Assembly (NCBI RefSeq): GCF_002902965.1
Contig: NZ_CP026108.1
Location: forward strand, 620,001-684,000
Direction of reading: 5' to 3'
DNA length: 64,000 nucleotides
Origin: Paraburkholderia hospita
GTDB taxonomy: Bacteria; Pseudomonadota; Gammaproteobacteria; Burkholderiales; Burkholderiaceae
The stretch's first letter is position 1, and the number at the start of each line of letters is the position of its first letter. The notes beneath the pieces were generated by a model. The model saw only the letters and a list, made by a program, of their open reading frames with translations. It ran no database searches and was not told where the DNA came from. Shown here piece by piece: positions 1,444 to 52,043 of the stretch. A program made the position numbers and the translations under genes.

Positions 1444-1495
1444 GATATTTTCCCCTGCGAATTGGTTCTGGCCGCGATCTAGCAATGCGTATCAA

Positions 1496-6012: not shown

Positions 6013-6059
6013 GATAGGCCTCCTCTGTCAGCCATCACGCACCGCATTGACGCCTTCTT

Positions 6060-7844: not shown

Positions 7845-8175
7845 GTTTCTTCAAGCCTTTAAAGCACACTGGAATCGGCTCGCGACCCGCAAAGCCGCAT
7901 CAGCGATCGTTGACAACGCATCGCAATGCAGCGGCCCCGCACACGAATGCAACGCTGCGCGCGGCTGGTCGAAGTTCGGATGGCCCGCATGTCGCGCCGG
8001 CCGCGGCGGAACGCGCGCCCGGCGGTTCTATTCGACGTGCGATTGATGTGTGTTATAGGTCAAAAAATGCCGTTTAAGACGGCCTTTTTTCTTGCATTGG
8101 ACTTGCGCCGTTCAAACCAGGAAACGCCGCACGCTTATTGATATCGCGTATGTAAATAAACCGCTGCGAACGAAA
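7845..8175. other. Intergenic region between regulator and cyclase operon
   Basis: Presumed promoter region of the cyclase operon. It contains a symmetric hairpin terminator at 8062-8090 and no supported gene. Confidence 0.5.
8062..8090 (-). terminator. Bidirectional-looking intrinsic terminator
   Basis: GCCGT-TTAAG-ACGGC is a perfect 5-bp stem with a 5-base loop, flanked by a run of six A on the left and six T on the right. It can therefore work on either strand. It lies 86 bp past the stop of the regulator gene and upstream of the cyclase gene, so it should separate the two transcripts. Confidence 0.65.
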
Positions 8176-30491: not shown

Positions 30492-31193
30492 CGGGCGGCT
30501 CTCAGCCTCTTCAGATAGCTTTGGACTCGACGGCCTATCGTGCCTGCAGCAGGTTCGGTTTGCCTGTAGTCCGCTCCTTTCCTTTTGCGGCGCCCGAATA
30601 ACCTCGCCCCGACGCCCTTTCCACATGCGCCCGTCGGCAAGGTCGAGAACTGGCGCGCGCACGTTCCCTCGCTTTCGCGGTGGACTTCCAGCCGGTAACC
30701 ATAGTCACGTTTTCAGCTCCCACCATTGACCGACTCGATGATCACGCGCTGGCCGCTCGCTTCGGCGATCACGCGCACAATCCGCTCGCCGTAGAGGGGC
30801 GGCCGGAATTCGTGAATATCTGAAGCTTCAGATATGGCAGAGATTTTTTTGGTTGGCGGTCGCGGCAACTAGCGCATCGTCATGTCGTTCGGACCTGATC
30901 CGCGACCGGTAATCAAAAAAATGTTTGTAGTAAACCGCTCCGCAGGCGGTGGCCGCTATGGGCATTGAATGACCACTGCGGTCATTCGTGATGTCGTGCA
31001 AGGGCTATGACGCATGGAGTTCCGGCGATCGCGGGAAGCCTCACGAGCAAAAGACACAGGAAAGTGAGCGTCAACAGGCAAATCCACCGCCGTTTTGGAG
31101 TGCGCTGGTGTGCTGACAGATTGAAGGCACGAGTCTGGCCGCGTTGGCCTCATCGGAACGGGCAAACGTGTCGGGAAACAGGTGTATTCGCAA
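30492..31193. other. Intergenic region with a possible gene fragment
   Basis: On the minus strand, about 30718-30860, a frame reads a conserved-looking stretch (PPLYGERIVRVIAEASGQRV, then IIESVNGG) without a good start, possibly the tail of a small gene. A perfect 8-bp inverted repeat (GAATGACC-ACTGC-GGTCATTC) is at 30967-30987. Nothing else could be supported up to the IS91-type transposase. Confidence 0.35.
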
Positions 31194-32399
31194 CTAGTGC
31201 GCATGGGGAGAACCTGGCGGGGCTCGTGGAAGACTGCCGGGCATATCTTCGATGCGGAACATGTGTCCCTTGCCGCAGACGGGGCAGTCGCGTAGCGACT
31301 TGCCGGTGAGTCGCTGGTAACGGTCACGGTAGTCTTCCTTGGGCTCGGCTGGGGCAGCGGCGGGAGGCTGGACGCCGAGTAGCTGCCGGCAGATGGCGAG
31401 CTTGTCGGCACGGTGGCAGTTGGCGAGCCACCCGTAGCTGCGAATGCGCTTGAAGCCGTCAGGCAGCACATGTAGCAGGAAGCGGCGGATGAACTCGTCG
31501 GCCGTGAGTATCATGGCCCTTTGTCTGGACTCGTGCCGGTAGTCCTTCCAGCGGAACTGCACGGTGTGCCCGTCGAAGGCGAGCAGCCTGTTATTGGAGA
31601 TGGCGACGCGGTGGGTGTAGCGGCCCAGGTAATCGAGCACGTGTTCGGCACCGCCAAAGGGTGGCTTGGCGTAGACCAGCCACTCCGCCCGTGCTGCGGG
31701 TGCAAGCCAGGCTGCGAATTCGACGGGATCGCTCAGGGATTCGAACTGGCCGTGCAGGCGCAGCCCGCCGGCGTCGAACGTGCGCTGCAGCAGTTCGAGA
31801 AACAGGCGGCGAAAGAGCCGTGACAGGACCCGTACGGGCAGGAAGAAGCCGGGACGGCAGGTGATCCAGCGCTCGCCGTCCGGGGAGATGCCGCCGCCCG
31901 GTACAACGCAATGCACATGAGGATGATGGTGCAGATTCTGCCCCCACGTATGCAGGATCGTAATAAAGCCGATCTCGGCACCCAGGTGCTTCGGATCGGC
32001 GGCGATCGTGCGCAACGTTTCGGCGCTGGCGCGGAACAGCAGATCGTAGAGCGTCCTCTTGTTCTGGAGCGCGAGTGCGGCGACGGATTCGGGCAGCGTG
32101 AAGACGACATGGAAATACTCGGTCGAGGGGAGGAGTTCCGCATGCCGGCGTTCGAGCCATTGCGCGCGGGCGAGTGACTGGCACTTCGGGCAGTGCCTGT
32201 TACGACATGAGTCGTAGCTGATGCGCTGATGTCCGCATGCATCGCACTGTTCGAGATGGGCGCCAAGCGCAGCGGTACGACACAGCTCGATGGCACTCAT
32301 CACGCGTCGCTGGACACGACTGAGCACGTCGGCGTGGGCTTGCCTGTACTCGGAACCGCACTGGCGGAAGACGTCCGCCACTTCGAGCGCCGGCCGCAT
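31194..32399 (-). CDS. IS91-family HUH transposase
   Basis: A 401-residue rolling-circle transposase. The N-terminal zinc ribbon has CDACGHQRISYDSCRNRHCPKC (Cys pairs at about residues 52-76). The HUH metal motif is HHHPHVHCVVPGGG (about 155-170) and the tyrosine motif lies in LGRYTHRVAISNNRLL. A second CxxC pair is near the C-terminus (CPVCGKG). It nicks and joins single-stranded ends in IS91-type transposition. The start codon follows the stop of the recombinase gene by only a few bases, so translation is probably coupled. Confidence 0.88.
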   Translation of the reverse strand: MRPALEVADVFRQCGSEYRQAHADVLSRVQRRVMSAIELCRTAALGAHLEQCDACGHQRISYDSCRNRHCPKCQSLARAQWLERRHAELLPSTEYFHVVFTLPESVAALALQNKRTLYDLLFRASAETLRTIAADPKHLGAEIGFITILHTWGQNLHHHPHVHCVVPGGGISPDGERWITCRPGFFLPVRVLSRLFRRLFLELLQRTFDAGGLRLHGQFESLSDPVEFAAWLAPAARAEWLVYAKPPFGGAEHVLDYLGRYTHRVAISNNRLLAFDGHTVQFRWKDYRHESRQRAMILTADEFIRRFLLHVLPDGFKRIRSYGWLANCHRADKLAICRQLLGVQPPAAAPAEPKEDYRDRYQRLTGKSLRDCPVCGKGHMFRIEDMPGSLPRAPPGSPHAH

Positions 32400-32407
32400 G
32401 GCTGCGA

Positions 32408-33286
32408 TCAGAAGTACTCGGGCGCAGCGGGTGGAGATGGGATAGGTTCAGGGTGTGGGAGCAGGTCGAATGGACTCGCGGTGGCACACACGGTGCTGGT
32501 CGCGATGCGTAAGTACTTCGAAGTAGTGGAAAGAGACCGATGGCCCATGAGCAACTGGATCCTGCGCACATCGGTACCGGCTTCGAGCAGATGCGTGGCG
32601 AACGCGTGTCTCAGCGAATGCGGGGTGATGGGTTTCTGGATACCGCTGCGCTCACGCGCGAGGCCACATGCCAGCCTGATCGCGGTCGGGGTGATCGGGC
32701 GCCCGGGGATATCGCCGGGAAAAAGCCAGTCACGAGGATGAGCGCCCTGCCAGTACGTTCGCAGGATCTCGAGCAGGCGTGGCGAAAGCATTACATAGCG
32801 ATCCTTACGGTTTTTACCCTGATTGACGCGGATAACCATGCGCTTGCTGTCGATATCGGTGACCTTCAGGTGCGCCACTTCTGAAACTCTCAGACCTGCC
32901 GCGTACGCGGTCATCAGGATGGCCCGATGCTTTAGACTGGGAATGGCGTCGAAAAAGATCTTTACCTCATCGGAGCTCAGAATGACGGGGAGTCTCAGCG
33001 GCTTCTTCGGTAACGGAAAGTCCTCGTCGCTCCAGTCGCGTTTGAGCGTCACGCGGTAGAGAAACCGCAGAGCGCCAATCGCTGGACCGAGGCTGCTGGG
33101 AGCAAGCTTGCGCTCCTCCCGGAGATAGATGAGCCACGCTCGTATCTCGTCGGGCCCCAGCAGCTCGGGCGAACGACGAAAGTGGCGGGCGAAACTGGAT
33201 ACCTGAATCAGATAGGATGTCTGGGTATTCTCCGCAAGATTGCGGATCTGCATGTCATGCAGCATGCTTTGGCGCAGTGGCGTCAT
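32408..33286 (-). CDS. IS91-associated tyrosine recombinase (integrase)
   Basis: A 292-residue phage-integrase family protein starting at an ATG behind AGGAGG. The N-terminal SAM-like core-binding domain (MTPLRQSMLHDMQIRNLAEN) is followed by the catalytic domain with Arg in YAAGLRVSEVAHLKV, His-x-x-Arg in TPHSLRHAFATHLLE, His in LMGHRSLSTTSKY and the Tyr nucleophile there. Such recombinases accompany one branch of IS91-type transposases; their exact contribution is not settled. Confidence 0.85.
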   Translation of the reverse strand: MTPLRQSMLHDMQIRNLAENTQTSYLIQVSSFARHFRRSPELLGPDEIRAWLIYLREERKLAPSSLGPAIGALRFLYRVTLKRDWSDEDFPLPKKPLRLPVILSSDEVKIFFDAIPSLKHRAILMTAYAAGLRVSEVAHLKVTDIDSKRMVIRVNQGKNRKDRYVMLSPRLLEILRTYWQGAHPRDWLFPGDIPGRPITPTAIRLACGLARERSGIQKPITPHSLRHAFATHLLEAGTDVRRIQLLMGHRSLSTTSKYLRIATSTVCATASPFDLLPHPEPIPSPPAAPEYF

Positions 33287-33616
33287 GGCGAGCCTCCTGG
33301 AGGCAGTGGATGGAATGCCCAGCCGGGCGTTCCCATACTGCTCCTGGCGATGCCGCTCACCACCTCGCCGGGGTTCAGCGCCAGACAACCCTCTTCATGA
33401 AACATCAGCCATAGGCCTGTGCCCACCTCCCACTACCGCGTCAGCGGTTTAGTACTATTACGATTACCCACACCGGCAGATTAGGCGAAGCGCCATGTAG
33501 ATGGCGGCGACACCACGGTGATCAGGCGGGATCGCGCTAGATGAGTTGTGTGGCAATGGTTCGCATAATGTCCTGAACTTTTCCTACCGACCATGGTGGC
33601 CGGCAAGGAGAAGATC
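33287..33616. other. IS91 right flank and left end of the first RIT element
   Basis: No gene. It holds the presumed origin-side end of the IS91-type element, then the left 32-bp inverted repeat of the RIT element (33461-33492) and the leader of its first recombinase gene. Confidence 0.5.
33461..33492 (+). repeat. RIT1 left inverted repeat
   Basis: 32 bp beginning CGATTACCCACACCGGCAGA, exact reverse complement of 36554-36585. Confidence 0.9.
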
Positions 33617-34561
33617 ATGACGCAGTCTGAACTGGCGCGCGGCAAGGAGGGCTCCGCGCGCGCAGCCGAATTCCTCAGCGAGTTTGACGCGTATCTGGGC
33701 ACCGCCAAGGGCCTGGCGGAGGGCACCCGCCGGAAGTATGGCAGGTTTGTCCAAGGCTTCCTGGACGGGTGGTGTGGCGACAGCCCACCGAATTGGCAAG
33801 ACCTGTCAATCGAAGATCTCCGCGCATATCTGCATCACGAACTCTCGAACAAGAGGCGCCGACCATCGAACTCGCCGATCGTCGCGCTGCGCGCGATGCT
33901 GCGTTTTCTCGCCGTCAGGGGGCTCGTGCCGCCTGGTCTCGAGGAGACTCTGCCACGAATCCGGCGATGGCGTCACGCGGCGCTTCCAGCAAACCTGTCG
34001 GTCGACGATGTGGAACAGCTCATCAAATGCGCGTCCGACGCTGCCACGTTTCAGCCGTTGCGGAACACGGCAATCATGCTGCTGCTCGCGAGGACCGGGA
34101 TGCGGGCTGCTGAAGTCGTGCACCTCAGGCTGGATGACGTGGATTGGGCCGGCGGCATCATTCATATCCGAGGGGCCAAGTCTCGTCGTGACCGGGACCT
34201 GCCGCTCTTGCGCGACGTCGGACGCGCATTGCTTGCATACATCAAACGGGAGCGCCCTCCATCGTCATACAGGGAGATCTTCCTGCAATCGGTAGCGCCA
34301 GCGCGACCATTCATGGACTCGAGCGCAATTTCCAAGATCGTTCGGCGCGCCTTGAATCGTGCAGGTATCGCTCCCGCACGCGGTGCAGCACATCTCTTAC
34401 GGCATACCGCAGCAACGGCCATGCTGACACGCGGCGCGAGCTTCAAGAACATCGCCGACGTGTTGGGCCACCAGTCTCTGCAGTCCACCGCCACCTATGC
34501 CAAGCTCGACTTGCCTTCGCTGTCGCGCATCGCCATGCCGTGGCCAGGAGACAGATCATGA
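33617..34561 (+). CDS. RIT1 tyrosine recombinase A
   Basis: A 314-residue recombinase. The ATG at 33617 is chosen for AAGGAG six bases upstream; an in-frame ATG at 33593 lacks one. The N-terminal core-binding domain is followed by catalytic motifs: Arg in LARTGMRAAEVVHLRLDDVD, His-x-x-Arg in AAHLLRHTAATAML and the His...Tyr box LGHQSLQSTATYAKLD. The stop codon overlaps the start of the second gene (ATGA), indicating translational coupling in the trio. Confidence 0.9.
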   Translation: MTQSELARGKEGSARAAEFLSEFDAYLGTAKGLAEGTRRKYGRFVQGFLDGWCGDSPPNWQDLSIEDLRAYLHHELSNKRRRPSNSPIVALRAMLRFLAVRGLVPPGLEETLPRIRRWRHAALPANLSVDDVEQLIKCASDAATFQPLRNTAIMLLLARTGMRAAEVVHLRLDDVDWAGGIIHIRGAKSRRDRDLPLLRDVGRALLAYIKRERPPSSYREIFLQSVAPARPFMDSSAISKIVRRALNRAGIAPARGAAHLLRHTAATAMLTRGASFKNIADVLGHQSLQSTATYAKLDLPSLSRIAMPWPGDRS

Positions 34562-35499
34562 ACGGTGAGGAACTTCAGGATCTGCTGAGCCGCTATCTCG
34601 AACACCGCGAATTGCTGGGTTACAGGCATACCCATCGCGGAATCCTCGCGCGTTTCGTTCAAGACCATGTCATCGAGCATCCAGGCGAATCAATCAGGAC
34701 CATTGACGTACTCGAATGGGTTACCCGGGTTCGCCGTGCGCCGCCGTCGCAGTCCGCTACCCTCAGTGCCCTGCGTGGATTTCTGCGCTTCGTCAAGGCT
34801 GTCGATCCGGCAACCTCGGTTCCAGACAACCATCTGCTGCCATCCCCACGTCGCAGTCCCCCGTACATCCTGAGCGAAGAACAACTGCAATCGATCCTGT
34901 GCGCAGCAACGACCGCACGACCGCGAGGCGGTCTGCGCGCCGACGCCTACGTCGCGGTACTGGGGCTGCTTGCCAGTTCTGGGCTACGCATCAGCGAAGC
35001 GCTTCATCTCAAGGCAACCGACGTACACCTGCGGGATGAGCCGCCCCATGTCGTCGTTCGTGAAACGAAATTCAAGAAGTCTCGCATCGTGCCTTTGCAC
35101 CCGACAACCGCCGCTCACCTGAAGCAGTACGCCGACCGGCGCGAGCATAAGTGTCATGCAAGGCGCTCGACGATGTTCTTCGTCACAGATTTCGGACAGG
35201 CCCTCGATCAGAACTCCCTTTGGCGGTGGTTCTCGTGTGCGACGGCGAAACTCGGATTGCATTTGCCGGATGGACGACGGCCGACATTACATTCGCTTCG
35301 TCACTCATTCGCCGTTCATCGCCTAACGCAATGGTATGAAGACGGGGCGTCGGCAGCAGAACTGGCCCCGACTCTCTCCGTCTATCTCGGTCACGTCAGC
35401 CCCAGAGAGAGCTACTGGTACGTCTCGTCGACTCCTGGGCTACTGGGCTGTGCATTGAACCGTTTCGCCGCATTCGCAGACATGGGAGATCAATCATGA
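34558..35499 (+). CDS. RIT1 tyrosine recombinase B
   Basis: A 313-residue recombinase starting at an ATG that overlaps the stop of recombinase A and follows AGGAGA. Catalytic segments: Arg in LLASSGLRISEALHLKATDV, His-x-x-Arg in TLHSLRHSFAVHRLT and the last box YLGHVSPRESYWYVSSTP. Its sequence class differs clearly from A and C, as expected for the middle member of a trio. It overlaps C by ATGA. Confidence 0.9.
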   Translation: MNGEELQDLLSRYLEHRELLGYRHTHRGILARFVQDHVIEHPGESIRTIDVLEWVTRVRRAPPSQSATLSALRGFLRFVKAVDPATSVPDNHLLPSPRRSPPYILSEEQLQSILCAATTARPRGGLRADAYVAVLGLLASSGLRISEALHLKATDVHLRDEPPHVVVRETKFKKSRIVPLHPTTAAHLKQYADRREHKCHARRSTMFFVTDFGQALDQNSLWRWFSCATAKLGLHLPDGRRPTLHSLRHSFAVHRLTQWYEDGASAAELAPTLSVYLGHVSPRESYWYVSSTPGLLGCALNRFAAFADMGDQS

Positions 35500-36500
35500 A
35501 GCATACCGATGCCCTTGTTGGGCCACTGCTCCAGGAATTCTTCGTCAAGCATCTGATGACGCACCGAAATGTCAGTCCCCAAACGCTCTGGAGTTACCGT
35601 GATGCGTTTCGCCTCCTGCTTCGATTCGTTGCCGCGAAGATGCATATCGAACCGGTGGCACTCAATCTCATTCACCTCAGTCCGTCCGTTATTCTGGCCT
35701 TTCTCGACAGTCTTGAAATGGAGCGCAACAATACGGTGCGATCGCGCAACGCCAGGTTGGCGGCCGTTCGCTCGTTCTTTCGCTGGGTCGCCATATCCAG
35801 GCCCGATTTTGCCGGCCTAGCCACGTCCGTGCTGGCGATCCCGACCAAACGCGCCGACCGTCGTCTGATCTGCGCGTTGTCGCGGCCCGAAATTCAAGCG
35901 ATCCTTGGCGTTCCCAACCTCTCGACGCCGTGCGGACGACGTGATCATGCGATGCTGCTGACGATGTATAACACCGGCGCACGTGTTTCAGAGATTACGA
36001 CAATGGCGTGCAGCCAGGTGGAACTCGGCAGCCGCAGCAGCTTCGTGCATCTCCACGGCAAAGGGCGGAAAGAACGATGCGTGCCGCTTTGGGTCAGGAC
36101 GGCTGATGCGATCAGGAAATGGATGCGCGAGCGGGATGCGGTGCCGACGTCGCTGTTGTTCACCAACTACCGCGGCGAGAAGCTGACCCGCAATGGTGTC
36201 GATTGCATCTTGAAGAAGGCGATCGCCGGCGCAGTGCAGACTTGTCCAAGTCTGTCGAAAAAGCACGTATCGCCTCACGTCATAAGGCACGCGACGGCGA
36301 CGCATCTGTTGCAGGCTGGCGTCGACATCAGCGTCATCGCATTGTGGCTGGGCCATGAAAGCATCGACACGACACACATCTACATGGAGTCGAATCTTGC
36401 GCACAAGGAAGAAGCGCTAGGTCGCCTGCAGCCTGCCGGCCAGCGTACGCCGCGTTTTCACGCAACCGACAAGGTCATGGCGTTCCTCGAAACCCTCTGA
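35496..36500 (+). CDS. RIT1 tyrosine recombinase C
   Basis: A 334-residue recombinase starting within the stop of B. The N-terminal domain contains the SPQTLWSYRDAFRLLLRFVA pattern. Catalytic residues: Arg in TMYNTGARVSEITTMAC, His-x-x-Arg in SPHVIRHATATHLLQ and His...Tyr in LGHESIDTTHIYMES. Fifty-three bases separate its stop from the right inverted repeat. Confidence 0.9.
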   Translation: MKHTDALVGPLLQEFFVKHLMTHRNVSPQTLWSYRDAFRLLLRFVAAKMHIEPVALNLIHLSPSVILAFLDSLEMERNNTVRSRNARLAAVRSFFRWVAISRPDFAGLATSVLAIPTKRADRRLICALSRPEIQAILGVPNLSTPCGRRDHAMLLTMYNTGARVSEITTMACSQVELGSRSSFVHLHGKGRKERCVPLWVRTADAIRKWMRERDAVPTSLLFTNYRGEKLTRNGVDCILKKAIAGAVQTCPSLSKKHVSPHVIRHATATHLLQAGVDISVIALWLGHESIDTTHIYMESNLAHKEEALGRLQPAGQRTPRFHATDKVMAFLETL

Positions 36501-36553
36501 TTATGCGCACCGCAACGGCCGGGGTTTCGTGCTCCAGACGGCTCCCTGGCCGT

Positions 36554-36585
36554 CGCTTCGCCTAATCTGCCGGTGTGGGTAATCG
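36554..36585 (-). repeat. RIT1 right inverted repeat
   Basis: Exact reverse complement of 33461-33492 over 32 bp. Confidence 0.9.
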
Positions 36586-36607
36586 TGAATTTTTCGCCAA
36601 AGTGGCC

Positions 36608-36850
36608 TTATGCCGCTGTTTTAAAAGATAAATCGAAATCGATTGTCGGATCGAGCGGCGGCACCTTCCGATGGAGGTCGAGCAGATAGGAGCCGAGGCG
36701 ATTGATGTGATCCTTGCGGTAAGGCGAGAGTGCCGCGAGCACGGCGGCATCGATTGGATGGCCCCTGCGCTGCAACTCCTTGAGCTTGAGCGACATCCAC
36801 TGCACGTTGTAGAGGATGACCATGTTCGCGACGAGCTGGTTGTACTTGAT
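36608..36850 (-). pseudogene. tnpA: Tn3-family transposase TnpA, 3' fragment separated by RIT2
   Basis: Eighty codons starting IKYNQLVANMVILYNVQWMS and ending SPYRKDHINRLGSYLLDLHR plus an acidic tail: the classic C-terminus of Tn3-family transposases. The frame begins exactly at the edge of RIT element 2. The larger 5' part of the same gene resumes on the other side at 40313, so the two pieces are one gene interrupted by the insertion. Confidence 0.88.
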
Positions 36851-36879
36851 CTATGTGTAGTGCCCCGTTATGTGGAGTC
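36851..36879 (+). repeat. RIT2 left inverted repeat
   Basis: Begins CTATGTGTAGTGCCCCGTTA and ends TGTGGAGTC; pairs with 40261-40289. Confidence 0.75.
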
Positions 36880-36935
36880 CGGTGGGTCAAGGCGCAGTAA
36901 TAGTCGGCAGCCGCGATGCGAACTCCACATAAGTA

Positions 36936-37967
36936 TCAGAGCCGCTTCAACCAGTCGATAATCGGCAAGCGTCCGAATGTTCCACGGTCGGCCGATACCG
37001 TCGTCAATATGTCCGGAAACACTTGAAGGAGTGCCTGGCGCTTCATGTCGATGTCTGATTTCGCATAGCGCATCGTTGTATCGAGACTCGCGTGACCAAG
37101 CCACTGGCTAATCGTTGGGAAGTCTACTCCTGACTTTAACAAGGAGAGCGCTGTAGTATGCCTCAGCGAATGAGGGTGGATGCGTTTCTCCCGGAGTGTA
37201 GGTACGATCGTTCCGGCGGCGACCAGATGCTTGCGAAGCAGGTAGTGCACCCCAAAGCGGGTGAGCTTGTCGCCGCGATTATTGACAAACAGTGCCGTGG
37301 TTGCATCAATCGGGTACGGGCGTTCTTCGACGAGTCGCTGCAACAACCTGGCAGTCTGCGGCCAGATTGGACACACGCGGATCTTGTTTCCTTTGCCTTG
37401 GAGTCTTACCTGGCACGGCCGCTGCACGCGTAGGTCGCACAAACGAAGGTCGAGTACCTCCTGCACTCTTGCGCCGGTATTGAACATCAGTGAGAACAAC
37501 GCGTAGTCACGCCGACCGGCGGCGGTCGTTCGATCGACCGCATTCAGCAGCGCCTCGACCTCGTCCTGCTCGAGATATTCGATCGGCGCTGACCGGGCGC
37601 CGCGCTTGAATGGAATACCGAGGATTGCCTGCGCCGCCGCCAGATCTTCGGGACGCTCAGTTGCCAGGAACCGCGCGAATGTATGAATGGCGGCAAGCCG
37701 GGCATTACGCGTTGCAATGCCGTTGTGCCGGTCTCGCTCGAGAGATGTCAGGAACTGTCCGACGGATTCAGCGGTGATCGCCGCAAGATCCAAACGTTCG
37801 ATGCCGCAGTGTCGCTTCGCACTAAGAAATCGCAGCAGAAGCACCAGCGTGTCGCGATAGCTATGGATCGTGTGCCGACTCATCCCTCGCAACGTAGGCA
37901 GATAATCCTGGAAGAATCGGACAAGACTCCGTCCGAGCTCATCGGAGTAAGGACGCCGTTTCATCAT
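36936..37967 (-). CDS. RIT2 tyrosine recombinase C
   Basis: A 343-residue recombinase. The start at 37967 (complement) overlaps the stop of the previous gene (ATGATGA) and follows GGGAGAG. Catalytic residues: Arg in LMFNTGARVQEVLDLRL, His-x-x-Arg in HPHSLRHTTALSLLKSG and His...Tyr in LGHASLDTTMRYAKSD. It is the counterpart of recombinase C of RIT1, sharing NTGARV and similar motifs, but much diverged. Confidence 0.9.
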   Translation of the reverse strand: MMKRRPYSDELGRSLVRFFQDYLPTLRGMSRHTIHSYRDTLVLLLRFLSAKRHCGIERLDLAAITAESVGQFLTSLERDRHNGIATRNARLAAIHTFARFLATERPEDLAAAQAILGIPFKRGARSAPIEYLEQDEVEALLNAVDRTTAAGRRDYALFSLMFNTGARVQEVLDLRLCDLRVQRPCQVRLQGKGNKIRVCPIWPQTARLLQRLVEERPYPIDATTALFVNNRGDKLTRFGVHYLLRKHLVAAGTIVPTLREKRIHPHSLRHTTALSLLKSGVDFPTISQWLGHASLDTTMRYAKSDIDMKRQALLQVFPDILTTVSADRGTFGRLPIIDWLKRL

Positions 37968-38938
37968 TGCTCTCCCTGAACAAGATAGCCAAATCGCTTC
38001 GCGAACCGCTCGCTCGCCAGCTTCTGGAGTTCCGGAATCCAGCGCAAATAGTAGGCCGTCGATACGATTGATACATGACCCATGTAGAGTGCGAGCTTTG
38101 GAAGGTTGGACTGGACGTCCGCGCCCTGACGATACCATCGCATCAGTGCCTCAATTGCAAAGGAATGCCTAAAGTCCTGAATACGGGGAATCCGTCCATC
38201 TGGATCCCGAATGCCTGCGTCTTGCAGTAATCCCTTGATACCGTCATGCAATCCTGTTCCAGTGTAGCCTCGCAGGCCATGGTGCATATTGCACAGTAAC
38301 GGTGACGACGGCGTAGTGTCGAAAGGGGTAGCGAGGCGGCACATGAGGTAGCGGCGTAGTTCCAGCCGGGCACCGCACGAAAGCGGAACCCACCTCGATT
38401 TATGAAACTTCGATTCGCGTACGTGCAGGACTCCAGCTTGCGCGTCTACGTCGGCCAACGTTAACCGTAGCAACTCCCTTCGCCTCAGCCCGGCGGTGTA
38501 AAGCAGCACAAGCGCCAGGCGCAGGACATACGGCCTGAGTGGCGATGTCGGCGTGGCCTGGCGCGTGCCCGCAAGTTCGAGTACTCGACCAACCTGCGCG
38601 GGAGTCAGGATAATTGGTGCGGCATGTGGTTGCCGGCGTGCAAACCGGTTGATGTCCGGTACGAAACACCGGGGCTCGGTACGTTGCCGATAGAGGCAGA
38701 AATTGCGCACGGTAACCTGACGGGCGCGGCGCACGTTCGAGGTGAGGGAATCGAAGGTCTTGCACCATGATTCGAACAGGGTGTTGTTCAGGTCCGATTC
38801 ACCAGCTCGGACAACGAAGTCCCTCATCGAATGCAAGGTACGCTCCTGGTTGCTGTACTCACGCCCTAGCGCTCGGCGGTGCGCAAGATATCGAATGATG
38901 ACCAGATCAAGTGCGGTTGAGCCGAGTTGGTGTTTCAT
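37964..38938 (-). CDS. RIT2 tyrosine recombinase B
   Basis: A 324-residue recombinase. The ATG at 38938 (complement) overlaps the stop of recombinase A (ATGA) and follows AAGGGGG. Catalytic motifs: Arg in LLYTAGLRRRELLRLTLADV, His-x-x-Arg in RIQDFRHSFAIEALMRW and the final box YMGHVSIVSTAYYLRWIPEL. Middle gene of the trio. Confidence 0.9.
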   Translation of the reverse strand: MKHQLGSTALDLVIIRYLAHRRALGREYSNQERTLHSMRDFVVRAGESDLNNTLFESWCKTFDSLTSNVRRARQVTVRNFCLYRQRTEPRCFVPDINRFARRQPHAAPIILTPAQVGRVLELAGTRQATPTSPLRPYVLRLALVLLYTAGLRRRELLRLTLADVDAQAGVLHVRESKFHKSRWVPLSCGARLELRRYLMCRLATPFDTTPSSPLLCNMHHGLRGYTGTGLHDGIKGLLQDAGIRDPDGRIPRIQDFRHSFAIEALMRWYRQGADVQSNLPKLALYMGHVSIVSTAYYLRWIPELQKLASERFAKRFGYLVQGEQ

Positions 38939-40158
38939 GATGCCCCCTTCATTGAGACTCGACCACGTCCAGGTACCGGAAGGGCAACCTCGCGCAGCGC
39001 CTCCACATGCAGGCGAAGATAGACACACGTGCTCTCGAGGGAGTGGTGACCGAGTAGATCGCCGATCATCTTTACTCCGACACCTCGCTCGAGCAAGCGC
39101 ATGGCGAAGCTATGCCTCAGGCTGCCGGGACTGGTCTGTAGAACGGGCAGGCCACTGAGTCGTGCACGCTTGGCATAGATGTGTTCGATCGTTGCCGCCT
39201 TGATCGGACCGGCCGGGCACCGCACTCGCAGGAATAGCTGGTGCGTGTTCGTTAGGGGTGGTCGACGGCGTAGATAGCGCTCGAGCACATGTCGCGTTCG
39301 GTCGTTGAGCGGCATGACTAATACCGACCGCGTCTTGCACTGGTCCACCCGCAGGATATCGTTCTCCCAGTCTATCGAGTCGAGCGTCAAGCTGGCGACT
39401 TCTGCTGGGCGCAACCCGTAGTAGGCCATCAGGTAGAGAATCGCGTGATCACGGCAACCTTCAACGCTCGAGTGGTCGATCGAATGCAGAAGCCTGCGTA
39501 CCGTCCTCCAATTCAACGCCCGCGGTGGAAGTTCTCCGCGATAGGTACGAGGTGTGTCGATAACATCGAGGCGATCTCTCGTGTAGCGTTGATCGGCGCA
39601 GAACCTCAGAAAGGCACGCAAGTGCGCAATCGTATGCTGAAGTGTCTGGCGGCAAAGACGCCTGCTGGTCTGGTCGACAAAGCGCTCGACATCGTTGGCT
39701 CTGACGCTGGCAAGGCGGCGCTTCGAACAGGCACGCGACAGGAAGCCAGTAACCGTCCTCAGGTGTTGCTCGACTGTTGCGGGAGCAAGTCCGCGCAGAT
39801 CAATGAGATGGGATCGGTATTGCGAAATGAGCGCGTCGAACCGGCTCGGTTTAGCCACCGGAACGAACAGACCTCGATCGCACAAAAAGCGCACTGCCGC
39901 TCGCTGCGTGGCCCGGTACGACGTCTTGTGCGACCACGGTGCGAACCAGCGGGACAGCGCAGTCGAGGTAATCGGCAGGCTGGTGCCAGCCGCTACATGG
40001 TTATAGGCAAGAACCTCACGGAACCGGTGTACGTGGCGCTGTGCGCAAATGCGCGTATAGCCGCGCTCGACGACCCACGCCGAAAAATTGCGGACTAGCG
40101 GTCCTTGCGGGCCGGCAGCATAGTGCGGCCAATCGCGGGGAAAGAGAAATTCCAGCAT
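38935..40158 (-). CDS. RIT2 tyrosine recombinase A
   Basis: A 407-residue recombinase, the first gene of the trio, starting at an ATG behind GGGAGA. It has a longer N-terminal region than its RIT1 counterpart (an extra helical segment in residues 1-110). Catalytic motifs: Arg in LMAYYGLRPAEVASLTLDSI, His-x-x-Arg in SPGSLRHSFAMRLLERG and His...Tyr in LGHHSLESTCVYLRLH. Confidence 0.9.
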   Translation of the reverse strand: MLEFLFPRDWPHYAAGPQGPLVRNFSAWVVERGYTRICAQRHVHRFREVLAYNHVAAGTSLPITSTALSRWFAPWSHKTSYRATQRAAVRFLCDRGLFVPVAKPSRFDALISQYRSHLIDLRGLAPATVEQHLRTVTGFLSRACSKRRLASVRANDVERFVDQTSRRLCRQTLQHTIAHLRAFLRFCADQRYTRDRLDVIDTPRTYRGELPPRALNWRTVRRLLHSIDHSSVEGCRDHAILYLMAYYGLRPAEVASLTLDSIDWENDILRVDQCKTRSVLVMPLNDRTRHVLERYLRRRPPLTNTHQLFLRVRCPAGPIKAATIEHIYAKRARLSGLPVLQTSPGSLRHSFAMRLLERGVGVKMIGDLLGHHSLESTCVYLRLHVEALREVALPVPGRGRVSMKGAS

Positions 40159-40260
40159 GTGAATCTCCCATTCAAGTGAACGGAAGAATCACAGTAGCGC
40201 GGTCTAGTTATGTGTAGTTCGCCGGCCTCAACGTCCCGACGGCGGGAGGTCGCGGCAGTT

Positions 40261-40289
40261 GACTCCACATAACGATGTCCTGCACATAG
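40261..40289 (-). repeat. RIT2 right inverted repeat
   Basis: GACTCCACATAACGATGTCC then TGCACATAG; reverse complement matches 24 of 29 bases of the left repeat. Confidence 0.75.
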
Positions 40290-40321
40290 GTCCAGTAACG
40301 TTATGCAAAACGTTACTGGAC
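40290..40321. repeat. Perfect hairpin at the RIT2/tnpA junction
   Basis: GTCCAGTAACGTT pairs perfectly with AACGTTACTGGAC around a 6-base loop (13-bp arms). It sits exactly between the RIT2 terminal repeat and the tnpA coding sequence and supplies the premature TAA of the 5' tnpA part. There is no equivalent at the left junction. Confidence 0.8.
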
Positions 40322-42950
40322 GACCTTGCGCTGCTCGTGCCGGAGGTTCTCGGCGATGACGTCCCCGCCGAACATCAGCCATTTCGCGAAATCGTTGAAC
40401 TGCTCACTCTTGTTTGTCGCGGCGTGGATCGTGCGGCGCATCTCCGGATCGTTGATGTAGCGCAGAAGGAACATCGTGCGGATGACACGTCCGAGCTCGC
40501 GAAACGCAAAATACAGCTTATTCTTCACGCTCTCGGAGCCGAGACGTCGCAGGATCGTTGATGGCGTCATGAGGCCGGCTTTGATCGAGATGGCCACCCG
40601 CAGCATGTCGGGGAAGTGCCGCTCGATCAGCCCCCAGTCAATGCTCGCTCGAAACAGCGACTCGATGTTCCTGTAGCGTCGGCGCCGGTCGGCCTTGTAG
40701 AAGACGAGATCCTTGACGTCGCGAATGCGGGGCATCAGCCTTATGCCGAGCAGGTGCGCGAGCGCGAAGACCGGCGCGCTTTGCGCGTGCGTGTCGCCGT
40801 GAATCATGTCAGGCTGGATGTCGGACGTGTTCTTGATCAGCCCGTCGAGAATGTAGACCGCCTCATGCACGCCGCATGGGATGAAGTGGCTGAACAGCGC
40901 GATATATTTGTCCGAGACGTGGTAGTAGCCGATGCCACGATAGCCGCCGTAGCGGATGTGGTATTCGGACAGGAGGTTCTGCTCGTAGAGATTCCACTTC
41001 GTGCCGTCGGCCGACACGCGACTTCCCGAGCCCCAGAACTTCGGCAACGTAAACTGGTTGTACGCGTTGATGACCTTTACGATCGCCTTGTCGAGCCGTT
41101 CCTCGGTGATGTGTCGCAGATTGAGCCAAGCGACCTGCTTGCGGCTGAGGTTTTTCACCGAGCGCACGGTCTGCGTGGGGCCGAGGTTGCAGCCGTAGCA
41201 GAACAGCGTCGTGATGAAGCGCTTGCGCGGCTCGTCTATCTTTCCCTCGAAGCCCGAGAGCGGGCCGAAGAGCTTGTGCAGTTCGAGCCACTGCTCGGTT
41301 TCGGTCAGGATGTCGAGGATGCTGACCGGCCGCATCGAAGCCGTGATGGCCCGATCGACGAGTGCCCTGTTCGGTGGGTCGGGCTTTTTGTCTGGCTTGT
41401 GAAGCAGGAGGCCCTGTTCGCCGAACTCGACGTGGTCGTTTTCCGGAAAGGCGGCGTCGACCGTGTCGGCGAGCGCGCCGAGTTCGTCCTTCAGTTGCCG
41501 AACGAAGGCTGCGCTTTCGACCGGGAAGTCGACGAGCTCGCCGTAGCGCGGCAATTCTTCGCGGAACTCGTCCCACGAGACCTGGTGTTCGCGCGGATCG
41601 TCGTACTGGTCGCTGTACTCGACGTACACGTCGCCGGAGTTGAGCTCGCGCATGAGCTGGCTGAACACGCACAGCTCGAAGTACTTCCGGTGCAGCATCC
41701 CGGATGACCGGCCGTGCGGGAACACGGACTTCTCCCATTTTTCCGGGATCCAGTCGAGCGGCAACTGCGCCAGGTCGGCGTCGCCCAGCAGCAGGTATTC
41801 TCGCCGCGACGAGCGGAATTGCCTGAGCCAGCCAAACGCCTTGAGCAGCGCGTCGTCCTGCGAGCTCGACTTCAGCGACAACATGTCGAGGCATTGAAAT
41901 AGCAGCGACCGCAGGTTCTGATACGGCGCGAGCAGGAACGGAAACGCGTGGTTGCCGACGTGCGCGATATGCTCGTTGCACTGGATCAGGACCGAGTCAG
42001 GATCGTCGTTTAGTGCCTCACGCATGCGCGCAAGGCGCACGGCCGCGGGTGTCTCGTCGTCCTGGAGGATCTGGAGCACGTCGCGGAACTGGGTGACGAG
42101 CCCTTGCAGTTCATCGGCGTGCCGCGTGCGATATCGCTCGAGCCTCAGTTTCGCCGTGCTCTCGAGTTTGCGCACGGTCTTGATGAAAATCTCGGCGACG
42201 TCGTCGAGCGCCTTCTGCAACTGCGAGAAGATGAATAGCACCGCGAGCGTGTAGCGCTTCGCTGGCTTCAGGGCGCGCATCTCGTGCATGTCAAGGGCAC
42301 GCGCCTCGGTAACGAACTGCATGCGCTTTGGAACCGACAGGATGTCCGGCGCCGGCGGCAAGCCATCAGCTAACGTGTTCATGACCTCGATGTGCTTGAG
42401 AAAGCTCGTCACCTCGCGCGGGCCGGGGCGTTTCGGCTCCCGCTTAAGCTCATCCCACGGCGTGCGGCCCGCACGCATTTTGAAAAGGTCGTCTAGCCGC
42501 GTTCGCCGCGGTTCGTCCAGAGCCTGGGCGAACGCGCGGTAGATGACCTCGTTGAGCTGGCTACGGGCGTGGCTGGCGATGCGCAAAAGAGTCATGAGTT
42601 GAGGCATCCAGAGGACGAATGCTAGCGTACTCGCGCAGGATTTTCTGGTGCCGCGATTTACTGCCGGAGCGGTCGTAGCGTGCGAGCGCCGTGCTCGGCA
42701 CTGGACGGGCGCCGAGCACGGCGCAGACGTGATCGATGATTGCAAGCGGCACGTCACAAACGGGCGGCATGTATCCGAGACGCTGCAACAGCTTCAGTTG
42801 CGCGAGGATCAGCACACGCGTCGGCGCTTGCCGGAACTGGCCGCAGACGAAGCGGATCTCGGCCGCGCTGGGCGTGTAGACCTTGCGCAGTTCGTCCTCG
42901 CTTACCTCGGCTGGCAGTACCGGGTAGGCAGTCTCATGCACGGTGTTCAT
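40313..42950 (-). pseudogene. tnpA: Tn3-family transposase TnpA, 5' and central part, interrupted
   Basis: The N-terminal part starts at 42950 (complement; MNTVHETAYPVLPAEVSEDE) and reads through ALARYDRSGSKSRHQK; near 42590-42610 the frame shifts, and the rest continues with MTLLRIASHARSQLNEVIYR to the DDE region: DMIHGDTHAQSAPVF (first Asp), PRIRDVKDLVFYK (second Asp) and ATNKSEQFNDFAK (Glu). It ends RHEQRKVV then a stop created by the RIT2 junction. Together with 36608-36850 it would give a near-full-length transposase of about 960 residues. It is inactivated twice, by the frameshift and by the RIT2 insertion. No resolvase or terminal repeat was found. Confidence 0.88.
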
Positions 42951-43067: not shown

Positions 43068-43480
43068 CTACGACTGCGACGTATCACCGCGCGACGGTCC
43101 TCCGTGCTTGGCATGGGACTTTTTGCGCTTCAGCCGATGGCCCCAGGCGAGCGGCTCATCGAGTACAAGGGTGAAGTGACCAGCTGGCGGCGCGCTGCCG
43201 CACGCCAGCGATCGGAGGCCGGCCATACGTTCGTGTTCGGCCTGTCTGACGGCCGCGTCATCGATGGCAGTCACGGCGGGAACAGTGCCCGTTCCTGAAC
43301 CATGCGTGTACACCCAACTGTGAGGCAATCGAGACGGGCGATCGCGTCTTCATCCATGCACTCACCAGCCTCAGGCCTGGCGACGAACTTTTTATCGACT
43401 ACGGTCTCATGATCGACGGCGAGATGACCGAAGACATCCGTGTCCAGTACCGTGTCATTGCGGCCATTCCGCTTGCCGTG
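43068..43480 (+). pseudogene. SET-domain protein-lysine methyltransferase, degraded
   Basis: The frame reads LRRITARRSSVLGMGLFALQ, GERLIEYKGEVTSWRRAA and FGLSDGRVIDGSHGGNSAR, then a one-base loss at about 43294 moves the rest to another frame: FLNHACTPNCEAIETGDRVF, then RPGDELFIDYGL. These are the SET motifs (GxG, NHxCxPNC, ELxxDYG) of the short bacterial SET proteins. No proper start codon is present, and the post-SET cysteine cluster expected after DYG is lost. The gene is dead. Intact relatives methylate lysines, but bacterial targets are poorly known. Confidence 0.75.
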
Positions 43481-44209
43481 GATCACTGCTTGGCAGTGCA
43501 TGATCGCGACGTAAGTCGCAGCGCTGCCCACACGTATATGGCCGACTGTATGACGATAGCTGGCTTGTGTATGTCTGCACTACCTGTTTGCACCCGGCTG
43601 CGCATCCTGTGCGGCCCCCGGTTCTTTGCGCTGCCAGCCGACGCTCGTCGATGAGCGGTACCGTCGGTTGTCGTCAAATTGGCAACGGTCGGTATGGAAG
43701 GTCGAGCAGCCGCTCGGTATCCGCAGTCAATGACAAGACATCGGTGGCGCGACCATCGTCCAACGGCGGTTATGATTAGTATTGCTGACGTCGAACACAC
43801 GATCAGGTCGAACGGCAGCTTCGTGCGCGTCTGGAGGACAGTAGCCGACCCTATACTGATGGTCGCGGCATTTGGCGTCCAGGGGCAGCTAACAGAGTGG
43901 TCCGATCATACAACCAAGCATTTCGGGGACGGCGGTTCGGCTTTAATTGGCGTTCAGGTGTCGCCGTGTATGCGGTCCATCGACGATACCCCTGGGAGTG
44001 GTGGGCTTCAGATTCGCCAGGGGAGCGTGACATGGCAGGTTAGAACGGCAGCCACATCACCAAGCGGGAAGACCATGCGTTGAACCGGCAGGAAGATCAC
44101 GAAGCCGAGTCGGCAAACAGGGCAATAGTGTCTACCGCCAGCGACCACAGTACGTAAGATGCAGCCCCTACCTCTCGAGCACAGCGTCCCTGTAGTCGCC
44201 AACGCCTCC
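43481..44209. other. Region without a supported gene
   Basis: About 730 bp. Open frames are short, lack ribosome-binding sites and show no domain I recognise. It probably contains decayed DNA from the mobile-element nest. Confidence 0.35.
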
Positions 44210-47996: not shown

Positions 47997-49952
47997 ATGA
48001 GGTCCTGTGCTCAAAAACGACGTGATTCTGACGCCGACGGAACGACTGGGGGCAGCAGATTACCGGGTATTAGTGAAACGATTCAGACAACCGGGCGCCG
48101 CCGACTCGCTGAATTTGTGAATTTTTTTCTTGGACCGGTTGCCGCACTGAGTGCCGAGCAAGATCTCCTCGTCAAACGCGAGTTGTTACGTTCACTGTCA
48201 CGTCGAGCGGCATATTGGATCGCGCTGCTGTTGGGCGGAGGTTTGTTCTGGTTCGTATTTGGATTGTGGGATCCAAACTTCAGATTTGTATCTTTCTTCC
48301 GTACCGTCTGGATCTTCGGACTGTGGTCCATCGTCGCTCCGATGGCAGCATACCTGCTGAATAAGACAATGGCGCTCGCAAAGCACGCCGGCGTCAACGC
48401 GATCGAACGGATGCACTGGGAATGGACTGCACTGGTCATACTGACATCGTTTTGGTGGGCGGCGGCCAGCTTTGGGCTAGTCCCACCCAACTACACGCAC
48501 CCGCCCCTCCATGGTTATTATTTTAAATTGAATGGATATAACTTCGTCGAACTCACAATTATCAGCTATGCATTTGCTTTGTTACTGCTAGCACCCAGTC
48601 TTAGAGCTACCTTAGGTTCACTCATGTTCGGCGTTATCCCGTTCGGGTTCAGCGTGGCACCGATTTTTTTTACTAAACGGCCGGGAATGTTTGACTGGTA
48701 TGCGGCTCTACTAGTTGGATATTTCTTCATGGCATGGTTTATTTGCAACGATCAGAAGCGCTCATGTGTAAACGAGGTAATTCTCGAAGAAGCGCGATCT
48801 CAGGCTGAAGCGGCAATTGCAGAAAAGAACCATTTCATCGCCGCGATAAGCCATGACTTGCGTCAGCCGCTCACCACGCTCGGCCTGAAGTTGAATTATC
48901 TTGGGCGAAACGTTGAATCGGCCCGGCTGGCCGAGGACGTCTCGATTGCGCAAAGACAGGTGGCTGCAATGGAAGGCATGATCAACGGCGCACTGGATAT
49001 CAGCCGCCTCGAGTCCGGCACGTGGAATGTTGAAATTCAGGACGTGGTGCTGCCTTCCCTTCTACTCGACATCGTTGTGGATATGCAGCCGCTGGCCGAG
49101 GCCAAGGGGTTGAAGTTGGGATTCCATAGCCGCCCCTGTCTGGTCCGTACGGATCGACATGCACTGGACAGGATCGTCCGGAATATGGTGATCAATGCGG
49201 TCCGCTACACGCCTTCCGAACAGGGAGGAAAGAAAGGACATGTTCTGGTGAGCTGCCAAAGGCGTGGCAACCACGTGAAGATAAGCGTGTGGGACAACGG
49301 GATCGGTATCCCTGAAGACAGACAGGCGGATATCTTCAAAAGCTATGTACAGGTCGACAACCCCGAGAGAAATCGTGAGAAAGGATTCGGGTTGGGTCTG
49401 TCGATTGTCCAGGGTCTCGCGAACCTTCTTGGTCATAAACTGGACGTGGACTCGACACCAGGGCGGGGATCGCGTTTTTCCGTTACCGTCCCCTTCATAG
49501 GGCTCATACCGCCAGAATTGCACGAGGTTCAAACGGTTGAAAGCGACGACCCGGACCTGACCAATATGGTCGTGGTGATCATCGAGGACGATAGCGATTT
49601 GAGAGTCGAAATATCGATGCGCCTGATCGAGCAGGGATGCTATGTCGTGGCCGGCGAATCATCGCACGACGTCATCACGCAGTTGCGCATTGAGGCTTTG
49701 GCAAGTGGCCCGCACTTCATCCTCTCCGACTACCGGCTGGAACACGAGGACGGTATTGCTGCAATTGCGGCAGTCCGTACCGCTATCGACGCATCGATTC
49801 CTGCGATCCTGTGGTCGGGGGACACCTCGTCAGTGGTGCTCAAAAAAGTCGCCGCCAGCGGCATGCAATTTTTGTCGAAGCCGGTTTCGGAGCGGAGCCT
49901 GTTGACCATACTGGCGAAACACAAGCCAAAGGCATTGACCGAACACGGGTAA
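47997..49952 (+). CDS. Membrane hybrid histidine kinase 1
   Basis: A 651-residue protein; the ATG follows CCCGGAGG. About six transmembrane helices lie between residues 70 and 250. The dimerisation domain has His286 in IAAISHDLRQPLTTL, the ATPase domain has NMVINAVRYTP (N box, Asn400), VWDNGIGIP (G1) and GFGLGLSIVQGLANLLGH (G2), and a C-terminal receiver has VVIIEDDSDLR, Asp578 in FILSDYRLEHEDG and Lys628 in LSKPVS. The DLRQPL H-box belongs to the hybrid-kinase class that often works with LuxR-type regulators. There is no recognisable sensor domain other than the membrane part. The first of two tandem paralogues; an IS630 element sits 204 bp upstream. Confidence 0.9.
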   Translation: MRSCAQKRRDSDADGTTGGSRLPGISETIQTTGRRRLAEFVNFFLGPVAALSAEQDLLVKRELLRSLSRRAAYWIALLLGGGLFWFVFGLWDPNFRFVSFFRTVWIFGLWSIVAPMAAYLLNKTMALAKHAGVNAIERMHWEWTALVILTSFWWAAASFGLVPPNYTHPPLHGYYFKLNGYNFVELTIISYAFALLLLAPSLRATLGSLMFGVIPFGFSVAPIFFTKRPGMFDWYAALLVGYFFMAWFICNDQKRSCVNEVILEEARSQAEAAIAEKNHFIAAISHDLRQPLTTLGLKLNYLGRNVESARLAEDVSIAQRQVAAMEGMINGALDISRLESGTWNVEIQDVVLPSLLLDIVVDMQPLAEAKGLKLGFHSRPCLVRTDRHALDRIVRNMVINAVRYTPSEQGGKKGHVLVSCQRRGNHVKISVWDNGIGIPEDRQADIFKSYVQVDNPERNREKGFGLGLSIVQGLANLLGHKLDVDSTPGRGSRFSVTVPFIGLIPPELHEVQTVESDDPDLTNMVVVIIEDDSDLRVEISMRLIEQGCYVVAGESSHDVITQLRIEALASGPHFILSDYRLEHEDGIAAIAAVRTAIDASIPAILWSGDTSSVVLKKVAASGMQFLSKPVSERSLLTILAKHKPKALTEHG

Positions 49953-50096
49953 CAAGGATGGAAGTCGCAAGAGCGTGTTTCGCCTCGCGCACTACCAGCC
50001 CCTGTCAGGCGAGTAATGGAACACCTGTCCGTCGACTGGCTGGCGGACCGTTAGCACAATGCAGTGCATGCTGAAGCTGATACCCGGAGGCTTTCC

Positions 50097-52043
50097 ATGA
50101 CATCCTGTACTCAAACACGACGTGAGTCTGACGAGAGCCTGAAGCACGGGGCCCGCAGATCACCGAGTGTGAGTGAAGCGGTTCAGACAACCTGGCACCG
50201 CAAACTCGCTGAATTTGTGAATCTATTTCTGGGACCAGTTGCAGCACTCAGTACCGGGCAGAATCTGCTTGTCAACCGCGAGTTATTGCGATCGCTTTCC
50301 CGTCGATCGGTGTGTTGGATCGTGCTACTGTCGGTTGGCAGCTCGCTCCTGTCCGTATATGGGGCGTGGATAAAAACTTCGTATATCTATATCTGTTTTC
50401 GCGCTGTCTGGGTTCTGGGAATGTGGGGAATGGCCGTTCCCATGGCAACATACTTACTGAAAAAGACAATGGCGCTCCCGAAGTACGCCGGTGTCAACGC
50501 GATCGAACGGATGCACTGGGAATGGACTGCACTGGTCATACTGACATCGTGCTGGTGGGCGGCAGGTAGCTTCGGATTAATCCCACCCGACTTCTCGAAC
50601 CATGCTCCTTACATAAAATTGGCCAGATCTGGTTTCTTCGAGTATACGTTGATCAGCCATGCATTTACTTTGCTGCTGCTCGCACCTAGTCTCCGCGCGG
50701 CTTTGGGCTCACTCGTGCCCGGCTCTATGCCATTCTTGTTTAGTATCGTACCGCCGCTATTTGTTTATCGACCATGGATGCTTGTCTTTTATACGGCTCA
50801 GCTCATTGGCTTTTGTTTCATCGCATGGCTTATTTTCCATAATCAGAAACGCGCATGCGTAAAGGGGGTTATTCTTGATGAGGCGAGATCGCGGGCTGAA
50901 GCGGCAAAGGCGGAAAAGAACCAGCTTATCGCCGCGATAAGCCATGACTTGCGTCAGCCGCTCACCACGCTCGGCCTGAAGTTGAATTATCTTGGGCGAA
51001 ACGTTGAATCGGCCCGGCTGGCCGAGGACGTCTCGATTGCGCAGAGACAGGTGGATGCGATGGAGGATATGATCAACGGTGCACTGGATATCTGCCGCCT
51101 CGAAGCGGGCACCTGGAATGTAGAAATTCAGGAAGTGGTGCTGCCTTCCCTTTTATTCGACATAGTTGTGGATATGCAGCCGCTGGCCGAGGCCAAGGGG
51201 TTGAAGTTAGGACTCCATAGCCGCCCATGTCTGGTCCGTACGGATCGACATGCACTGGACAGGATCGTCCGGAATATGGTGATCAATGCGGTCCGCTACA
51301 CGCCTTCCGAACAGGGAGGAAAGAAAGGACATGTTCTGGTGAGCTGCCAAAGGCGTGGCAACCACGTGAAGATAAGCGTGTGGGACAACGGGATCGGTAT
51401 CCCTGAAGACAGACAGGCGGATATCTTCAAAAGCTATGTACAGGTCGACAACCCCGAGAGAAATCGTGAGAAAGGATTCGGGTTAGGCCTGTCGATTGTC
51501 CAGGGTCTCGCGAACCTTCTTGGTCATAAACTGGACGTGGACTCGACACCAGGGCGGGGATCGCGTTTTTCCGTTACCGTCCCCTTCATAGGGCTCATAC
51601 CGCCAGAATTGCACGAGGTTCAAACGGTTGAAAGCGACGACCCGGACCTGACCAATATGGTCGTGGTGATCATCGAGGACGATAGCGATTTGAGAATCGA
51701 AATATCGATGCGCCTGATCGAGCGGGGATGCTATGTCGTGGCCGGCGAATCATCGCACGACGTCATCACGCAGTTGCACATTGAGGCTTTGGCAAGTGGC
51801 CCGCACTTCATCCTCTCCGACTACCGGCTGGAACACGAGGACGGTGTTGCTGCAATCGCGGCAGTCCGTACCGCTATCGACGCATCGATTCCTGCGATCC
51901 TGTGGTCGGGGGACACCTCGTCAGCGGTGCTCAAAAAAGTCGCCGCCAGTGGCATGCAGCTTTTGTCGAAGCCGGTTTCGGAACAGACCTTGTTGACCAT
52001 ACTTGCAAAACATAACCCGCAGATATCGTCCGAAGGCGGATGA
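50097..52043 (+). CDS. Membrane hybrid histidine kinase 2 (tandem paralogue)
   Basis: A 648-residue protein; the ATG at 50097 is chosen because it matches the start of the first copy and follows CCCGGAGG. The domain order is the same: about six TM helices, His in IAAISHDLRQPLTTL, ATPase motifs and a C-terminal receiver (FILSDYRLEHEDGVAAIAAV; LSKPVSEQ). The membrane region differs substantially from copy 1, while the kinase and receiver differ by only a few residues. All catalytic residues are present in both copies, so both should signal. It is convergent with a LuxR-type response regulator. Confidence 0.9.
   Translation: MTSCTQTRRESDESLKHGARRSPSVSEAVQTTWHRKLAEFVNLFLGPVAALSTGQNLLVNRELLRSLSRRSVCWIVLLSVGSSLLSVYGAWIKTSYIYICFRAVWVLGMWGMAVPMATYLLKKTMALPKYAGVNAIERMHWEWTALVILTSCWWAAGSFGLIPPDFSNHAPYIKLARSGFFEYTLISHAFTLLLLAPSLRAALGSLVPGSMPFLFSIVPPLFVYRPWMLVFYTAQLIGFCFIAWLIFHNQKRACVKGVILDEARSRAEAAKAEKNQLIAAISHDLRQPLTTLGLKLNYLGRNVESARLAEDVSIAQRQVDAMEDMINGALDICRLEAGTWNVEIQEVVLPSLLFDIVVDMQPLAEAKGLKLGLHSRPCLVRTDRHALDRIVRNMVINAVRYTPSEQGGKKGHVLVSCQRRGNHVKISVWDNGIGIPEDRQADIFKSYVQVDNPERNREKGFGLGLSIVQGLANLLGHKLDVDSTPGRGSRFSVTVPFIGLIPPELHEVQTVESDDPDLTNMVVVIIEDDSDLRIEISMRLIERGCYVVAGESSHDVITQLHIEALASGPHFILSDYRLEHEDGVAAIAAVRTAIDASIPAILWSGDTSSAVLKKVAASGMQLLSKPVSEQTLLTILAKHNPQISSEGG

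Follow-up and report, generated by a model that had tools for sequence, protein, structure and literature searches.

Nested RIT elements and an IS91-type element with its own recombinase in a broken Tn3 transposon of Paraburkholderia hospita

A broken Tn3-family transposon in Paraburkholderia hospita appears to have received two RIT elements, RIT1 in its terminal repeat and RIT2 in its transposase gene tnpA, and subsequently an IS91-type element with its own tyrosine recombinase (IS91+int) that landed in the attachment site of RIT1, the RITs probably moving as circles that offer two equivalent cores. We place the probability of this reading at about 0.8. The window analysed here is a stretch of 64,000 nucleotides, C4:620001-684000 of an 11.5 Mb genome in six contigs, and its best-covered plasmid matches are from Paraburkholderia sabiae.

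The composite locus

Open reading frames, Pfam and NCBIfam identify an IS91 transposase with a tyrosine recombinase upstream, two RIT trios, and pieces of a Tn3 TnpA. The first-pass annotation had proposed seven intact tyrosine recombinases within about 7.7 kb, and seven PF00589 genes are indeed found at 32408-40158 (7.75 kb), all seven retaining the catalytic R, K, RH, H and Y columns; its IS91-type element with an integrase of its own is likewise borne out by the transposase and recombinase genes. The nesting is, however, tighter than had been reported. RIT1 and IS91 do not lie side by side, RIT1 being inserted within the Tn3 terminal inverted repeat and IS91+int within the attachment site of RIT1, and the composite starts not at 31194 but at the Tn3 terminus, 30794, with IS91 starting at 30836.

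The outer terminal repeat of Tn3, GAGGGGCGGCCGGAAT, occupies 30794..30809, separated from the remaining Tn3 by RIT1, and the same sequence terminates Tn3 downstream of tnpA in L004, L025, L033 and other relatives. The transposase gene lies on the minus strand in two parts: the 3′ part (36611..36850; residues 917-994 of an intact relative) ends in the RIT2 target core CTTGAT at 36845-36850, and the 5′ part (40322..42950) carries a second lesion besides RIT2, a frameshift near the N-terminus between residues 123 and 154. TnpA is a pseudogene, with residues 1-123, 154-918 and 917-994 of the 994-aa relative in separate pieces or frames, the first two in different frames, and its 814-aa piece still scores 560 bits against 500 for the Tn3 transposase model NF033527. 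A second Tn3 terminal repeat was searched for and not found, a single end being recognised at the locus. Beyond the composite, the stretch at 43071-43853, which may carry a SET-domain-like frame, is repeated with a constant left boundary at 43071 in many genomes of the same genus and at 93% in G000:C5, and neighbouring genes at 47997-49952 and 50064-52043 encode hybrid histidine kinases that share one domain architecture.

Both RIT1 and RIT2 consist of three adjacent same-strand tyrosine recombinases in A-B-C order with short overlaps, enclosed by terminal inverted repeats, and empty sites and near-identical copies in different targets would be consistent with mobility. The body of RIT1 (33464..36582, plus strand), delimited by an inverted repeat of 33 nt, Pfam, and RitA/B/C profiles on L018, comprises terminal repeats that match at 33/33 nt and the trio ritA (33593-34561), ritB (34540-35499) and ritC (35496-36500), together spanning 33593-36500. 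Its target-side core, TCGTGA (36583..36588), is followed by Tn3 from 36589. On the other side lie the inner core TTACGA (33458..33463), a 20-bp spacer forming a perfect palindrome (30816..30835), and an outer core at 30810..30815 that is again TCGTGA, as in the empty site of L004, where the two flanks (ending at 30815 and starting at 36583) form one continuous stretch. IS91+int (30836..33457, minus strand; transposase 31194-32399, recombinase 32408-33388) is located between the spacer and the inner core, its ends being set from other copies and its last 2 nt uncertain; since it splits the RIT1 spacer from the inner core, it is younger than RIT1.

At the same end of Tn3, RIT1-type elements are also found in Cupriavidus necator NH9 (L003), L148 (one flank seen), L166 and L167. 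The last two are copies within one genome, G073, and the element is oppositely oriented between them, so at least one represents a separate insertion; in L003 and L167 an uninterrupted tnpA lies beside the element. At least some RIT1-type copies at the Tn3 end are thus separate insertions at a preferred site.

RIT2 (36851..40289, minus strand) encodes ritC (36936-37967), ritB (37964-38938) and ritA (38935-40158), a trio spanning 36936-40158 in which the starts of ritB and ritC were chosen by us at 4-nt overlaps, and has terminal repeats of 37 nt with 81% identity. Its att block (40290..40321) contains the inner core GTCCAG (40290-40295), a spacer (40296-40315) and the outer core CTGGAC (40316-40321). 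Of the boundaries first assigned to RIT2, 36850 and 40313, the left one (after 36850) stands and the right one moves to 40321. The tnpA sequence is continuous at this site in nine loci (L003, L004, L020, L025, L027, L033, L036, L037, L167), which amount to eight distinct regions as L020 and L167 are one region; in these, TTGTACTTGAT, or a close variant, is directly followed by GACCTTGCG. That Tn3 came first and RIT2 entered tnpA later, as had been suggested, is supported by these uninterrupted regions, none of which has a different continuous sequence across 36850/40313, while the order of RIT1 and RIT2 is unreadable at the window's junctions. The target core CTTGAT is that of most empty tnpA relatives, whereas both cores carried by RIT2 (CTGGAC, read on one strand or the other) equal the core of intact istB in P. 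sabiae, so this RIT2 may come from an istB site. P. sabiae itself has RIT2 in two istB copies, between which the element is 99.0% and the flanks are 82-85% identical, and istB sites without a RIT are also seen.

Anatomy of RIT ends

RIT loci were collected by RitC profile and more regions were fetched, L134 (Legionella) and L068 (on the same contig as L187) being left out before the trio search. The matches listed contained 112 trios, a set that under-samples distant RIT classes, having been chosen by RitC similarity to the four RITs of the host. Usable ends and flanks were present in 73 trios, representing 71 distinct end contexts, and the other 39 were left out for weak repeats, odd length or short flanks.

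A palindrome touches one terminal repeat in 45 of the 73 RITs compared with 1 of 574 control positions, on the ritA side in 21, on the ritC side in 24 and at both ends in 0, with none at either end in 28. A profile-based test of 71 RITs similarly finds a one-ended site in 46 (24 ritA, 22 ritC), a site at each end in 3 and none in 22. Two simpler rules were dropped: that the spacer always sits at the ritA end is ruled out by RIT4 and the 24/73 elements with a ritC-end spacer, and that B′ begins with GA held in only 19/43. RIT4 itself (L007, G000:C1:3528000-3536500), with its spacer at the ritC end, lies at the start of a fadD-like gene.

Most palindromes resolve into a 6-bp core, a 20-bp spacer and another 6-bp core, with a further core at the opposite end of the element. 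In 24 of 47 rows the target-side core equals the outer core (one of 48 rows, whose repeat match was weak, was left out), and in 37 the two share at least 5/6 bases, against 1.05% and 3.15% of shuffled pairs; 23 of the 47 have unequal cores; with repeats removed, identity holds for 20/43 and agreement in at least 5/6 bases for 33/43. The spacer arms resemble the terminal-repeat ends (6.3/10 positions), which the flanks of the target fail to do (2.5-3.3/10). From these comparisons a general anatomy may be read as target core (6), RIT, core′ (6), 20-bp palindromic spacer, core (6), target.

This arrangement would follow if the RIT leaves as a circle whose junction reads IR-core′-20 bp spacer-core-IR and so contains a pair of sites in inverted orientation, each with a 10-bp arm to the left and right of its 6-bp core. 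Recombination of either circle core with a 6-bp target core would then leave the latter at one end of the element and place the spacer and carried core at the other, beside ritA or ritC. After integration the inner core would be the only core with two flanking arms, and carried cores may originate from earlier sites. It is the circle and the roles of the three Rit proteins that we infer here.

Genome G187 offers a view of such carried cores. Three of its RIT copies share an identical 3,504-bp sequence, from which the fourth departs by a single gap, and their left/inner/outer cores are drawn from a small shared set: GCCGCA/CCGCCG/ACGAAA in L153, CCGCCG/ACGAAA/CCGCCG in L154, CCGCCG/ACGAAA/TGTGAG in L155, and ACGAAA/TGTGAG/CCGCCG in L156. 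L155 could be derived from L156 if excision retained the left core and the element re-entered via the inner core, and L154 likewise from L153 if the outer core were kept.

Alternatively, the att block could act as a folded single strand, in the manner of an integron cassette site or an SE, with strand-biased copy-out. The RIT2 att block folds as a strong hairpin (z −4.8, against z −0.4 for the stretch of the other end), which keeps this route in contention, and the G187 carried cores resemble the 6-bp fingerprint of SEs. Palindromes fold regardless of use, however, and a 6-bp core flanked by two arms would suit double-stranded recombination as well, so that we hold the folded-strand route to be unlikely, if a serious competitor to the double-stranded circle.

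Frames abutting RITs (n=91, chosen from 111) match IstB in 10 cases and the IS66 transposase in 7. Another recurring target, seen in 5 of the 91, consists of frames matching AAA_34/Helicase_C_4 (Strawberry notch-like; alignment A7).

The landing site of IS91+int

The IS91+int transposase is a Y2 transposase with a zinc-binding domain (PF04986, PF14319), and at 453 bits it lies far above the NF033538 cut-off of 125, as expected of the IS91 family; a relative, ISAzo26 of Aromatoleum, has this gene pair too. What sets IS91+int apart within the family is its position at RIT attachment sites. In other genomes one of its flanks is commonly a RIT arm and the opposite flank runs 2 nt, core, arm, and a RIT site is found on at least one side in 30 of 40 distinct close copies (merged by copy). 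Most left ends lie directly beside RIT arms that end in a CATAA-like sequence, and the 99th percentile of the background is reached by 23/30 left and 19/36 right flanks. The 10 misfits include several with group II intron sequence at the right end. A common sequence stands directly at the right end in L013, L024, L034, L179 and L196, within an annotated group II intron region in L013.

Six distant copies with 67-69% nucleotide identity, selected by us out of 50 records listed among 378 (Aromatoleum, two Rhizobium, two Mesorhizobium and Sinorhizobium fredii), all lie at RIT sites, with another annotated tyrosine recombinase within each fetched stretch. Of 20 loci chosen as recombinase-less IS91, 18 match a recombinase after all, 16 of them at about 42-44% identity, and the set therefore serves as a comparison with a second IS91+int subfamily, whose ends are unmapped and which has a strong spacer at 2/20 loci. 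The IS91 pieces in the pair of RIT2 copies from P. sabiae share 76-92% identity, compared with 99.0% for RIT2, which suggests separate insertions at one point.

It is conceivable that IS91+int recognises just a short tetra- or pentanucleotide such as CATAA at its end, which RIT sites merely contain. The left profile signal does lie mostly in the first 5 positions, arm positions 6-10 alone being hardly enriched (4/30 at the 95% level), and as the 10-bp profile alone is thus weak for IS91 targeting, the palindromes and both flanks were used instead. Palindromes (at least 8/10 pairs) abut 14/30 left ends and lie at the expected offset beyond 8/35 right ends, against 0.11% of random 20-mers, and the spacer is on one side in 6/6 distant copies, which makes recognition of a short motif improbable.

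The geometry of arm, IS, target core and arm is what would be expected from a tyrosine recombinase cutting at the arm|core boundary, and the inner core is where most IS91+int copies lie, at that boundary; the IS91 recombinase itself probably makes that cut and selects the site. More broadly, this IS91 subfamily may be a specialist RIT parasite, a proposal to which we give about even odds: it would insert, probably as a circle via its own recombinase, at the sole two-armed site, could ride as cargo within the RIT outer cores, and the RITs would keep two 6-bp records of earlier targets. The reverse nesting is seen in L012 (about 5026-8423), where a RIT trio interrupts the transposase gene of an IS91+int copy. 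In L031 (about 1079-3709) IS91+int has the same RIT-type spacer palindrome on both sides, and no RIT trio was found in the locus, which is perhaps a remnant of a lost RIT.

Orientation of the spacer

Instead of forming circles, RITs could acquire opposite orientations by in-place inversion through their terminal repeats, either site-specifically or by RecA. The host's RIT3 is inverted between two near-identical segments of the same contig, with the spacer palindrome staying with the flank, and its 88-nt terminal repeats (94%) could serve RecA; all repeat mismatches from position 29 inward have moved with the interior. Both segments (L005, G000:C4:227000-235500; L006, G000:C4:526500-535000) have RIT3 within an IS21 istA-like gene. 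Three multi-copy RITs from C. necator UYPR2.512, Mesorhizobium sediminum and G187, with 10 copies in all, behave differently: the spacer changes ends while its orientation stays constant relative to the element and does not follow the flank, as a circle entered via either core would produce and in-place inversion would not. Inversion can therefore not be the only source of orientation, and RIT2 is also present in unrelated targets, having apparently moved between them. As a general account without circles, in-place inversion is improbable.

That the pile-up reflects chance accumulation in dispensable DNA, as the already frameshifted tnpA might suggest, is scarcely credible given that RIT1-type elements recur in the Tn3 terminal repeat (L003, L148, L166, L167) and that the position of IS91 relative to the RIT recurs across species.

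Relation to known systems

IS91 elements usually target tetranucleotides, and such targets probably do not account for a location at RIT sites. The dif site of XerCD consists of two inverted arms around a 6-bp centre. A RIT site shares these inverted arms and 6-bp centre and differs in that two such sites stand back to back, in a transposon encoding three recombinases.

RITs and IS91 are already known, and the prior work consulted here in part comprises PMC3414803, PMC2864759, PMC10214605, PMC5385486 and PMC8138268. The relevant parts of PMC3414803 and PMC2864759 describe RITs as three adjacent overlapping tyrosine recombinases of about 3.1-3.5 kb with terminal inverted repeats, as observed here, and already mention transposase genes as RIT locations as well as a palindrome close to the ends. 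Additional to those descriptions are the threefold 6-bp core, the 20-bp spacer on one side, insertion by either end, the carried cores, and RIT1 in a Tn3 terminal repeat. GInts (PMC5385486) and SEs/Tn554 (PMC10214605), as far as these excerpts describe them, likewise have several recombinases, 6-nt staggered cuts or a 6-bp footprint, and circles (a circle being presumed for the RIT), but are four-gene islands or carry Tn554 genes with cargo, whereas the RIT has two back-to-back inverted sites; a possible counterpart of the carried 6-bp footprint of SE/Tn554-like elements is the core set shared among the G187 copies. In the open-access literature searched, no account was found of the full RIT core anatomy or of IS91 insertion at RIT sites. 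For RITs, a comparison from 2023 (PMC10214605) enters target specificity, the empty site and movement as untested, and its authors knew of no laboratory reproduction of RIT transposition.

From the anatomy described here the circle junction and the empty site can be predicted exactly, as can insertion by either end, which would make RIT movement testable. The comparison also ties a subgroup of IS91 to a site made by another transposon, and suggests that istB and IS66 genes are frequent RIT targets.
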